A stretch of DNA of 64,000 nucleotides from Terriglobus saanensis SP1PR4 (GTDB lineage Bacteria; Acidobacteriota; Terriglobia; Terriglobales; Acidobacteriaceae): positions 4,154,001-4,218,000 of the forward strand of contig NC_014963.1 of assembly GCF_000179915.2 (NCBI RefSeq). Direction: 5' to 3'. The first letter of the stretch is position 1. Each line of letters starts with the position of its first letter. This document shows, one piece after another, positions 26,689 through 29,876 of the stretch. The position numbers were made by a program, and so were the translations under genes. The notes under the pieces were generated by a model, which saw only the letters and a list, made by a program, of their open reading frames with translations, was not told where the DNA came from and ran no database searches.

Positions 26689-27207
26689 ATGATCGCTCCC
26701 GCGCGCCAGTTCACCTGGCCCGTCCCCGTCCCCGGCGAAGAAGACGCCCTGGCGCGCGGAGCCTTGTTCCTTAACGTTCAACCACGCGAGGGCGGCAGCT
26801 TTCTGGCCCTCTGCGCCCTCGGCTTTTCGACCGGCTCCGTCGCAACCGGCGTCTTCGCCATGCCGGAGCCGGATGAACTCTGCGCCGTAGCGGGCGGCTA
26901 CGCCTACCTCGTCGACACCCTCCATCCCGACCAGATCGAACAGGTCCCCCTTCGCCCCGTAGTGCAGGTCTTGCCCGTACCCGAGAGCGACGCCGTCGTC
27001 TTCGTCGGCTTCCACTCTATCTATGTGCGAGGTGCAGGCGATGTACGCTGGCAGACGCCTCGCCTGAGCTGGGAAGGCATCATCCTCGGCCATGCGGAAA
27101 ACGACATCCTCCACGGCACCGGCTGGGATATAAAGACGGACAAAGAGTTCCCCTTCACCGTAAATCTGCGCACACAGGCCTGCGAAGGCGGCGGCTTCCG
27201 AGGCTAA
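26689..27207 (+). CDS. Conserved protein of unknown function after thiL
   Basis: A protein of 172 residues from the ATG at 26689. An upstream TTG at 26623, overlapping thiL, would add 22 residues that end in ATTLSGPP and look plausible, so the start is uncertain. The sequence is beta-strand rich (FLALCALGFSTGSVATGVFA, YAYLVDTLHPDQIEQVPLRP), without signal peptide or named motif. It converges with rsmD, their stop codons overlapping by 4 bases. Function unknown. Confidence 0.6.
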   Translation: MIAPARQFTWPVPVPGEEDALARGALFLNVQPREGGSFLALCALGFSTGSVATGVFAMPEPDELCAVAGGYAYLVDTLHPDQIEQVPLRPVVQVLPVPESDAVVFVGFHSIYVRGAGDVRWQTPRLSWEGIILGHAENDILHGTGWDIKTDKEFPFTVNLRTQACEGGGFRG

Positions 27208-27809
27208 TCAACCAACGCTGGAAGCTCCACCACCGGTTCCCCAATCGAGTAGAACGAGAGAGCCGCATCTCCCTGCAGCAGCGTGCGCGTCCGCGCCAAG
27301 CGTCCATATCGATCAGACAACGGCTGCTTCCGCGTATGCTCCGCAAGCACCAACACATCCTCCGCAAGCGAGGCCGCAAAACCTTCGCTCCCAAGCGTTG
27401 AAAGGGTCCGGGTATATTCTTCGGCCTCGTCGTACGGCGGGTCCAGAAAGACCACATCCAGCACATTGCCCTGCTTCACGATCCGCTTCAAGAGCGTGGC
27501 CGTGCCCGCTGGCTCCAGCGTGTAGCCAGAGCGAAGGTCGAGCGATTTAAGATTCGCGCGGATCGCCGTAAGCGCCTTCGCGTTCGTCTCCGAAAAGAAG
27601 ACATGCTCCGCTCCCCGGCTGATCGCTTCGATCCCGACAGCGCCGGTACCTGCATAGAGATCGGCAAACCGTGTACCCGCGATTCGCAGGGCAAGGACGT
27701 TGAAGAGCGTCTCGCGCAGGCGGTCGCTGGTGGGACGCGTCGCCGTTCCCGGAGGTGCAACCAGGGGCCGCGATCGATATGTACCTGCTATCACCCGCAC
27801 TCTCTGCAT
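27204..27809 (-). CDS. rsmD: 16S rRNA (guanine966-N2)-methyltransferase
   Basis: Methylates G966 of 16S rRNA during 30S assembly using S-adenosylmethionine. The 201-aa protein starts VRVIAGTYRSRPLVAPPG, the RsmD signature, then RPTSDRLRETLFNVL, the SAM-binding FADLYAGTGAVGIEAISRGA near 50, and the catalytic VVFLDPPYDEAEEY (DPPY) near 118. The ATG at 27809 is preferred over 27854 because the conserved domain begins at residue 3. Promoter region is shared with the divergent M50-like gene 57 bases away. Confidence 0.94.
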   Translation of the reverse strand: MQRVRVIAGTYRSRPLVAPPGTATRPTSDRLRETLFNVLALRIAGTRFADLYAGTGAVGIEAISRGAEHVFFSETNAKALTAIRANLKSLDLRSGYTLEPAGTATLLKRIVKQGNVLDVVFLDPPYDEAEEYTRTLSTLGSEGFAASLAEDVLVLAEHTRKQPLSDRYGRLARTRTLLQGDAALSFYSIGEPVVELPALVD

Positions 27810-27865
27810 GATACAAGGCCGTCGCCTGCGCAATGAGCGTCCGGAAACGGGCATACAATCGAGGT

Positions 27866-29005
27866 ATGCGCACGCCTTCCCTGCGGATTGGAGTTCTGTT
27901 CGGCGTCGAAATTCGCCTGCATGTGCTTTGGATCCTGTTCCTGTTTTTCAGCATGACCTACGCGGCCTTTACCGGCGCGACCGCCATTCGCGGCTTTGCC
28001 CTCTGGCTCCTGATGCTGGTCGCCGTGATGGTCCGCGAAGTGGCACGCTCCATCGCCTTCGCCGCCTCGGGAGCGAAGCTCTCTTCCCTGCTCATCCTTC
28101 CTGCGGGAGCGGTGCCTTCCTTTTCCAGTGGCTCAAAGAAGGAAGCACAGGAAAGCCACCTCGTGGCCCTCGCGGGTCCTCTGGCGAACTTCTTCGTCGG
28201 CATCACGCTTGCGCTTCTGCTCTACATGGCGACGAATCAGGTCAATCTCTTCGAGCGCCCGTGGGTTACGCCCGCTTATCTCCTGCGCTCACTCATCTGG
28301 ACACAGGTCCTCCTCGGCGGCCTGCACCTCATCCCCGCCGCTCCGCTCGATGCCGGAGTCGCCCTTCGGCAGCGGTTTGCAAAGATCCGGGGCACTGTGC
28401 GCGGCGCGCGCGCCATGGCAGGCATCAGCCAGACCGTCTCCATGGCCCTCGTCATCGCCGGTATCTCCATGCAGAACGTCTGGTTAATGGTGATGGGTGC
28501 GTTCCTGATGGTGGGCGCGCAGATGGAAGCCGCCACCGCCGTCGGCGCTGAAACAGCGACCGGCGAAAGCGTCCTGATGCGCGACGTCATGCTCACCGAC
28601 TTCACCACCATCTCCTCCGCCGACACATTGGAGATGGCCATGGACCGCAGCGTCCACTCCCTGCAGGACATCTTCCCCGTCGTGCGCGGCTCACTGCTTG
28701 TGGGAACCGTCTCGCGGCAGACCCTCTCCGACGCCCTCAGCCAGGGCAACGGTTACGTGCAGGGCGTCATGGCACGGACCTTTCCCGTAGCCGCCGCGGA
28801 AGACTCTCTCTCCGCCACGCTTGCGCGCATCGGCGGTGGCGGAACCCAGATGGTGCCCATCATCGAGCGCAACAGCGACAACGGCGCAGGCGACCGCGTC
28901 CTCGGCATTGTGACCCCGCAGAGTCTTTCGCTCGCGATGCATCTCCTGGGCCGGTCACGCCGCATCCTGGAACGGGCCTCGCGGACGGACCAGCGTGACC
29001 AGTAG
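27866..29005 (+). CDS. M50 (site-2 protease)-like membrane protein with CBS-like tail, catalytic site lost
   Basis: A 379-aa polytopic protein with the Rip3-type layout: first helix after RIGVLFGVEIRLHVLW, six or so hydrophobic segments, then a C-terminal pair of CBS-like repeats (VLMRDVMLTDFTTISSADTL and TFPVAAAEDSLSATLARIGG). The HELGHA zinc motif expected in LLMLVAVMVREVARSIAFAA reads REVARS, so both zinc His are Arg. The second motif is IPAAPLDAG, keeping the Asp. It is therefore unlikely to be a protease; a sensor or scaffold role is an inference. The start is uncertain: ATG at 27833 is also possible. It overlaps rsmI by 11 bases. Confidence 0.8.
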   Translation: MRTPSLRIGVLFGVEIRLHVLWILFLFFSMTYAAFTGATAIRGFALWLLMLVAVMVREVARSIAFAASGAKLSSLLILPAGAVPSFSSGSKKEAQESHLVALAGPLANFFVGITLALLLYMATNQVNLFERPWVTPAYLLRSLIWTQVLLGGLHLIPAAPLDAGVALRQRFAKIRGTVRGARAMAGISQTVSMALVIAGISMQNVWLMVMGAFLMVGAQMEAATAVGAETATGESVLMRDVMLTDFTTISSADTLEMAMDRSVHSLQDIFPVVRGSLLVGTVSRQTLSDALSQGNGYVQGVMARTFPVAAAEDSLSATLARIGGGGTQMVPIIERNSDNGAGDRVLGIVTPQSLSLAMHLLGRSRRILERASRTDQRDQ

Positions 29006-29876
29006 CTTAGACGATGCCAAACCGCTGGCGCCGGGCCTCTACCTGGTCGCCACGCCCATCGGCAACCTCGAAGACATCACACTCCGCGCCCTGCGTGTGC
29101 TCAAGAGCGTGGACAAGATCGCCTGCGAAGACACCCGGCAGACCATCAAGCTGCTCAACCACTTCGGCATCAAGGCGCCGATGGTCAGCTACCACCTGCA
29201 TAACGAACGCTCGCGCGCCGAAGAGCTCGTAGCCGAACTGAAATCCGGGGCCCGCATCGCCATCGTGAGCGACGCAGGCATGCCCGGCATCGCCGATCCC
29301 GGAGGCGAGATCGCCTCTGCCGCCATCGCCGCCGGTCTTCCCGTCTTTCCCGTACCCGGCGCAAACGCCGCCCTCAGCGCCCTGATCGCGAGCGGCCTGG
29401 GAACGGAGAGCTTCGCCTTCCGTGGATTTCTTCCCTCCAAGTCGGGCGAACGCAAGTCCCTGCTGGAGACGCTGCGCGGCGAGATGCTCTCCGCCTCCAC
29501 CCCCGCGACGCAGATCTTCTACGAGACCCCGCACCGCATCGTCGACGCCCTCACCGACGTGGAAGCTGTCTTCGGCGCGGAGCACCGCATCGCCCTCGCC
29601 CGCGAACTCACCAAGCTGCACGAGGAGTTTCTCCGTGGCTCAGTCAGCGAAGTGCGGGCCGTCATCGCCAAACGCGACAGCCTGCGCGGCGAGATGGTGC
29701 TTCTCCTCTCAGGAGAGATTGCCGCTACCGCAGTGACCTCTGGAAGCGTCTATCAGGCAGTGCGCGCCTTGATGCAGGCCGAGGGTCTGGAAGAAAAGGA
29801 TGCTCTGAAACGTGTCGCGAAAGAACGCGGCATCGGTAAAAGCGAAGCCTATCGCGAGTGGCAGCGTAGGCGATAA
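28995..29876 (+). CDS. rsmI: 16S rRNA (cytidine1402-2'-O)-methyltransferase
   Basis: Methylates the 2'-OH of C1402 in 16S rRNA, tuning the P site. The 293-aa tetrapyrrole-methylase-fold protein carries YLVATPIGNLEDITLRAL near residue 16, CEDTRQT near 41, VSDAGMPGIADPGGEI near 90, and FPVPGANAALSALIASGL near 118. FYETPHRIVDAL near 175 is also conserved, with a C-terminal helical domain ending RGIGKSEAYREWQR. The GTG at 28995 overlaps the preceding stop, so translation is coupled to the M50-like gene. Confidence 0.96.
   Translation: MTSSLDDAKPLAPGLYLVATPIGNLEDITLRALRVLKSVDKIACEDTRQTIKLLNHFGIKAPMVSYHLHNERSRAEELVAELKSGARIAIVSDAGMPGIADPGGEIASAAIAAGLPVFPVPGANAALSALIASGLGTESFAFRGFLPSKSGERKSLLETLRGEMLSASTPATQIFYETPHRIVDALTDVEAVFGAEHRIALARELTKLHEEFLRGSVSEVRAVIAKRDSLRGEMVLLLSGEIAATAVTSGSVYQAVRALMQAEGLEEKDALKRVAKERGIGKSEAYREWQRRR

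Follow-up and report, generated by a model that had tools for sequence, protein, structure and literature searches.

The locus examined here raises the question of what an intramembrane protease does for its host once both of its zinc-binding histidines have been replaced. The available text of a review on bacterial site-2 proteases (S2Ps) assigns the motifs HExxH and LDG to all S2Ps and defines group III by a C-terminal CBS domain and the lack of a PDZ domain (PMC10202637). The gene under study lies within a 64,000-nucleotide stretch of the Terriglobus saanensis SP1PR4 genome (contig NC_014963.1), hereafter the window, and encodes an S2P homologue in which the HExxH site reads REVAR. The features on which the analysis draws are as follows, in window positions.

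27866..29005 (+): coding sequence of a CBS-type (group III) S2P homologue, predicted pseudoprotease, 379 aa (open frame; Pfam M50 and CBS; mjS2P match; dN/dS)
28034..28048 (+): REVAR, residues 57-61, at the HExxH zinc-motif site (mjS2P alignment; clade counts)
28034-28036 (+): Arg57 codon, CGC
28037-28039 (+): Glu58 codon, GAA
28046-28048 (+): Arg61 codon, CGC
28088..28114 (+): LLILPAGAV, residues 75-83, putatively equivalent to the re-entrant membrane loop that docks substrate (LLLPIGGVA in the mjS2P alignment; loop role as reported in PMC11486902)
28343..28357 (+): PLDAG, residues 160-164, residual LDG motif with the zinc-ligand Asp162 kept (sequence; clade rows)
28349-28351 (+): Asp162 codon, GAT
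28580..28738 (+): first CBS repeat, residues 239-291 (Pfam CBS, 31.0 bits; 5g5r tail match)
28769..28936 (+): second, degenerate CBS repeat, approximately residues 302-357 (within the 5g5r profile match; missed by Pfam in the window protein)
27204..27854 (-): divergent upstream neighbour, presumed rsmD-like methyltransferase (frame list)
28995..29876 (+): downstream neighbour, rsmI-like (TP_methylase) (frame list; Pfam)

A Group III S2P Homologue Without Zinc-Binding Histidines

The window protein fits the group III architecture, having a C-terminal CBS region and no PDZ domain among Pfam matches up to E 1; both Peptidase_M50 (31.4 bits, cut-off 27.2) and CBS (cut-off 24) were recognised by Pfam, and no rhomboid was found by sequence among Pfam matches up to E 1 or the 60 best PDB profile matches. 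An alternative in-frame ATG is present at 27833, and the family alignment begins at the ATG at 27866, with Met in column 1 in 96% of 98 aligned sequences (rows) carrying R57-E58 (RE rows). A profile of 17 members of the clade described below matched mjS2P (3b4r) over almost the whole length (E 1.9e-34), placing RevaR over HElgH, PldaG over PmdGG, and D162 on the LDG Asp; with the same profile, the tail matched the S2P CBS structure 5g5r at E 1.9e-12, and SpoIVFB (8vjl) was matched at E 6.4e-6. In the second motif, PLDAG, the Asp is present and the first Gly of the motif has become Ala. The sequence-only reading, by which both zinc histidines are Arg while the Glu and the Asp of PLDAG are retained, is borne out by the sequence and the 3b4r alignment; the window protein is an S2P homologue without either zinc-binding histidine, and judging from these residues it is very probably unable to cut by the S2P mechanism. 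AlphaFold, run on the window protein and the homologue on contig L034 only (97% identical), returned a pLDDT of 36 and a pTM of 0.23 and gave nothing usable as a structure.

Distribution of the Altered Motif Among Relatives

A scan of genome contigs with the window protein recovered one relative, from Terriglobus sp. isolate nzgw68. Even sampling of a larger group gave 298 genomes of the order, of which 284 had a match at E 1e-8, comprising 277 in the window's family (f1) and seven in a second family (f2). The family of the clade is taken to be Acidobacteriaceae, judged from its one named relative. Motifs were read in 170 f1 orthologues, from 168 genomes (one read twice) and contig L034: RExxR was present in 107, HExxH in 54, RExxH in three, and HEAAR, QETAR, QEVAR, HELVQ, HQLML, and RECGQ in one each. 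The RE clade consists of 110 rows from 19 coded genera, with R57 and E58 in 110/110 and R61 in 107/110. When 150 rows (97 RE, 49 HExxH, and four other) were sorted by genus, 19 genera carried RE forms, 40 carried HExxH, and three carried other forms, and RE and HExxH never occurred in one genus; 20 rows added later brought one exception, a RECGQ in genus g6, which otherwise has HExxH in the rows read. One draft genome of genus g32 (G217) yielded two RExxR copies (L177 and L178), and in the tree one of the two clusters with genus g2; either mixing in the draft assembly or gene transfer would account for this.

The HExxH orthologues are approximately 35-43% identical to the window protein and all fall outside the RE clade. 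HExxH was also read in 17/17 loci of the second family, some of which are shorter M50 paralogues and not orthologues, and in 20/20 more distant homologues, from families elsewhere in the class. Conservation of the REVAR form, which had been left to be checked in homologues, thus extends as RExx[R/H] to every row of the clade. Close homologues with HExxH, named beforehand as the finding that would make this a strain-specific loss, did not appear: the nearest homologues, from all 19 clade genera, have RExx[R/H] and HExxH occurs only outside the clade, so the loss is old and clade-wide. A strain-specific loss is ruled out by the 110-row clade.

Phylogeny and History of Zinc-Ligand Loss

For phylogenetic analysis the columns of both motifs were excluded. 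Rows were labelled by R57-E58, but these residues played no part in recovering the clade, inside which no other form fell. All 77 RE rows of a 146-row tree formed one clade (SH-aLRT 100), as did all 47 in a careful 97-row tree (support 100/100, with bootstrap not fully settled) and all 110 in a 174-row FastTree phylogeny, in which several long branches were flagged. Among 124 rows in a tree of the neighbouring rsmD, the 76 RE rows again grouped together as this clade (support 100); the RE change therefore followed vertical descent. A CBS-type S2P that was once active became a conserved pseudoprotease, with one origin, on the branch ancestral to the 19 or more genera of the clade. Three REVGH rows from the window's genus (L016, L022, and L027) lie deep inside the clade and together look like a single back-change of Arg61 to His; with RExxH in three rows, R61 is replaceable.

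The likely sister of the RE clade is genus g30, a placement that is not firm (bootstrap 98, SH-aLRT 77). Its three rows (L072, L139, and L215) read HEAAR, QETAR, and QEVAR, with PLAAG as the second motif; these forms suggest that H61 was lost before H57, and g30 could also represent a separate loss. Outside the RE clade, HELVQ (L154, genus g26), HQLML (L160, genus g51, loosely placed), and RECGQ (L218, genus g6, 78% identical to an HExxH row) are further zinc-ligand losses in the same orthologue. By these motif readings, besides the main conversion there are three or four smaller losses elsewhere in the family.

Selection and Residue Conservation

Comparison of the window gene with L034 gave a dN/dS of 0.042 (13 nonsynonymous and 88 synonymous differences); values ranged from 0 to 0.105 over 14 clade pairs, with 0.116 in one active pair and 0.193 in one paralogue pair. 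Purifying selection on the clade gene is strong, and the expectation that the gene is maintained held, given this dN/dS and the open frame. Five different Arg codons encode R57 across 98 rows, and five encode R61; with R57 and E58 invariant in 110/110 and R57 encoded in five ways, the motif is neither chance nor a sequencing slip. Catalytic residues have thus been lost in a clade under purifying selection, as is generally expected of a pseudoprotease.

Across the 97 RE rows, 18 columns never vary: H19, R57, E58, P79, G81, W145, P157, G199, G211, M242, T254, A258, P271, R274, G280, L291, Q299, and M302. The sole invariant His, H19, is equally invariant in the 49 active forms; no replacement zinc site was seen in these rows, which have no new invariant His and no invariant Cys or Asp, and an alternative zinc site was rejected on that ground. 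From these patterns the clade protein may be expected to have lost both zinc binding and peptide-bond cleavage. P79 and G81 of the docking loop are kept in 97/97 RE rows, the loop reading P-A-G-A in the window protein where P-x-G-G is usual. Other positions have drifted: N154 is found in 47/49 active versus 63/97 RE rows, Y159 in 45/49 versus 35/97, and G163 in 44/49 versus 37/97. D162 is present in 100/110 clade rows and absent from all 10 rows of genus g7 (L053, L055, L126, L127, L138, L148, L156, L224, L225, and L227), which keep R57, E58, and R61.

The CBS tail, previously described as intact, does exist, but a single CBS stretch is recognised in it by Pfam, against two in both active relatives scanned, and the Asp of the nucleotide motif is missing. 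The usual CBS nucleotide motif carries an Asp, in the second CBS motif; at this position RE clade members and active relatives mostly have Asn (98% of the active relatives) and the window protein has Ser. Nucleotide sensing is therefore not claimed for the tail, and nucleotide binding by this domain, proposed earlier as something to check, draws no support from the sequence with that Asp absent.

Neighbouring Genes and Other S2Ps

The divergent upstream gene, which we take to be rsmD-like by recognition and not by family search, is shared by 97/98 RE rows (one row being a duplicate), 45/49 HExxH rows, and 4/4 others. Downstream, within a span of approximately 1.5 kb and with some loci stopping at contig ends, rsmI was found in 89/98 RE rows, 1/49 HExxH rows, and 0/4 others, and in the later 20-row set it was found in 13/13 RE-clade rows and 0/7 others. 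The window protein had been described as having rsmI for a coupled neighbour, and the rsmI start at 28995 does overlap its stop by 11 bases (28995-29005); the linkage is, however, a derived feature of the clade. With rsmI absent downstream in 48/49 active orthologues, it was rejected as an ancestral operon partner. Downstream frames at nine non-RE loci included five serA-like genes and one aminotransferase-like gene on the other strand, all named by eye. No conserved partner gene marking a pathway was found within the approximately 1.5 kb span, in which rsmI was the only clade-specific neighbour sought and found.

A remaining active paralogue, which the sequence-only reading had suggested looking for, has two candidates in the window genome: an RseP-like M50 (HEFGH) and a small M50 (HEASH), both with intact motifs. 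Raw M50 match counts were not taken as gene counts, as one gene may yield two pieces. A further S2P of approximately 350 aa (e.g., L204:755-1864 (-)), with HExxH in 10/10 copies read, had no match in the window genome at E 0.01. At E 1e-10 it was found outside the clade in 40/40 and 12/13 genomes (52/53 together) and inside it in 5/40 and 16/50 (one genome being in both lists, hence 21/89 distinct, or 21/90 with the window genome); nine genomes in these counts were classed by genus, with G069, G080, G091, G145, and G206 outside and G198, G143, G200, and G128 inside. The association is striking, yet it rests on one RE origin and is not independent evidence.

Possible Functions of the Clade Protein

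Strict preservation of a presumably dead protease probably means a non-cutting job in the membrane. In SpoIVFB, according to the available text of one study, substrate adds a strand to a membrane re-entrant loop ahead of HExxH and is bound, too, along the linker leading into the CBS domain (PMC11486902). With P79-x-G81 invariant and the zinc ligands gone without a visible substitute, a non-cutting binder of transmembrane segments is favoured, and our best guess, by analogy and with somewhat better than even confidence, is that the clade protein acts as a binder or adaptor of membrane proteins. The buried side chains of Arg57 and Arg61 would pair with Glu58, as well as with Asp162 in the proteins that have it, and would thereby take over from the metal in stabilising the former catalytic pocket. 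This pocket and the re-entrant beta loop could then still accept transmembrane segments of client proteins, which might be shielded or passed to a second protease, either RseP or an AAA protease like FtsH, while the CBS/linker tail would serve as a cytosolic contact. Client binding and any protease partner are conjectural parts of this scheme, and with Asp162 gone in all 10 g7 rows, Arg-Asp pairing cannot be essential. The full proposal, that a swap of Arg for zinc, with one origin and fixed in the clade, made of a bacterial S2P a receptor for membrane proteins whose R57 and R61 replace the metal and whose beta-augmentation loop binds transmembrane clients and hands them to another protease, is put forward only tentatively.

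The S2P membrane core might alternatively be a scaffold that anchors a functional CBS tail, with RExxR as a fold-stabilising patch replacing zinc. Nine of the 18 invariant columns fall in the CBS half (M242 to M302) and the catalytic neighbours have drifted, as N154 and G163 illustrate, but a plain anchor need not hold R57, E58, P79, G81, W145, and P157 invariant in 97 rows, and ligand sensing by the tail is doubtful when the second-CBS Asp is already Asn in nearly all active relatives; we regard this explanation as rather doubtful. Less likely again is a decoy or inhibitor that oligomerises with active S2Ps (RseP or the small M50) or competes against them, a role nearer to that of iRhoms opposing rhomboid signalling. 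The two intact M50s of the window genome would provide targets, and the contrast in the further S2P (52/53 outside versus 21/90 inside the clade) points to a rearranged S2P network in the clade; its patchy retention, however, indicates no fixed one-to-one partner, and the clade genomes share one origin of the trait and are non-independent.

Continued peptidase activity through Glu58 and Asp162, with arginine or an unusual metal, would agree with the retention of Glu58 in 110/110 and Asp162 in 100/110 rows. It is nonetheless very improbable: both zinc histidines are lost, no His or Cys has newly become invariant, and genus g7 manages without Asp162. In addition, the available text of the review links mutations in HExxH or LDG to lowered activity in several species (PMC10202637). 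In favour of a decaying gene or assembly artefact are isolated losses in other lineages (HELVQ, HQLML, and RECGQ), but for the RE clade such an origin is scarcely credible and is already refuted by the dN/dS of 0.042, the same motif in 110 rows, the open frame, and rsmD in the same place in 97/98 RE rows.

Active and apparently dead versions of one orthologue stand beside the same rsmD in related genera, together with an apparent half-way form, HEAAR, and amount to a natural experiment on the route from an intramembrane protease to a non-cutting protein. A family-level annotation as "site-2 protease" would mislead for the RExxR proteins.

Comparison With Known Systems

No bacterial S2P pseudoprotease was found in the literature searched, which included few subscription papers and was covered in part by the best 20 of 28 and the best 20 of 155 matches; papers naming both "Acidobacteri" and "site-2 protease" included none that was relevant by title. 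With the group III S2Ps mjS2P (3b4r) and SpoIVFB, the clade protein has in common the membrane core, the C-terminal CBS tail, and the re-entrant loop motif; unlike them, it has Arg for both zinc histidines, and neither zinc binding nor cutting is expected.

The proposal of a pseudoprotease analogous to iRhoms holds in its first part, as the clade-wide motif loss under selection supports a pseudoprotease, while the likeness to iRhoms is a functional analogy only. iRhoms and Derlins have a serine-protease fold unrelated to S2P and are eukaryotic. What they have in common with the presumed role of the clade protein is that they are non-catalytic relatives of intramembrane proteases, reported to act on other membrane proteins (PMC3149277, PMC8641752). 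If the receptor proposal is true, Derlin/iRhom function would have in the clade protein a bacterial counterpart built on an S2P.

EGY3, as a member of the same protease family, is a closer precedent than iRhoms. An S2P pseudoprotease is already known from plants in this protein, which the accessible text describes as an S2P homologue without HExxH that helps to stabilise other chloroplast proteins (PMC10978774) and, in a second source, as found only in plant cells (PMC9355673). Compared by description, EGY3 and the clade protein are alike in lacking HExxH, but EGY3 is a plant chloroplast protein, whereas the clade protein is of the CBS type and arose within a bacterial CBS-S2P orthologue group. 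YqgP of Bacillus subtilis, which with a mutated active site is reported still to serve as an FtsH adaptor (PMC7231995), is a bacterial intramembrane protease that can act without catalysis as a substrate adaptor; it differs in being an active rhomboid that combines both roles and in having another fold.
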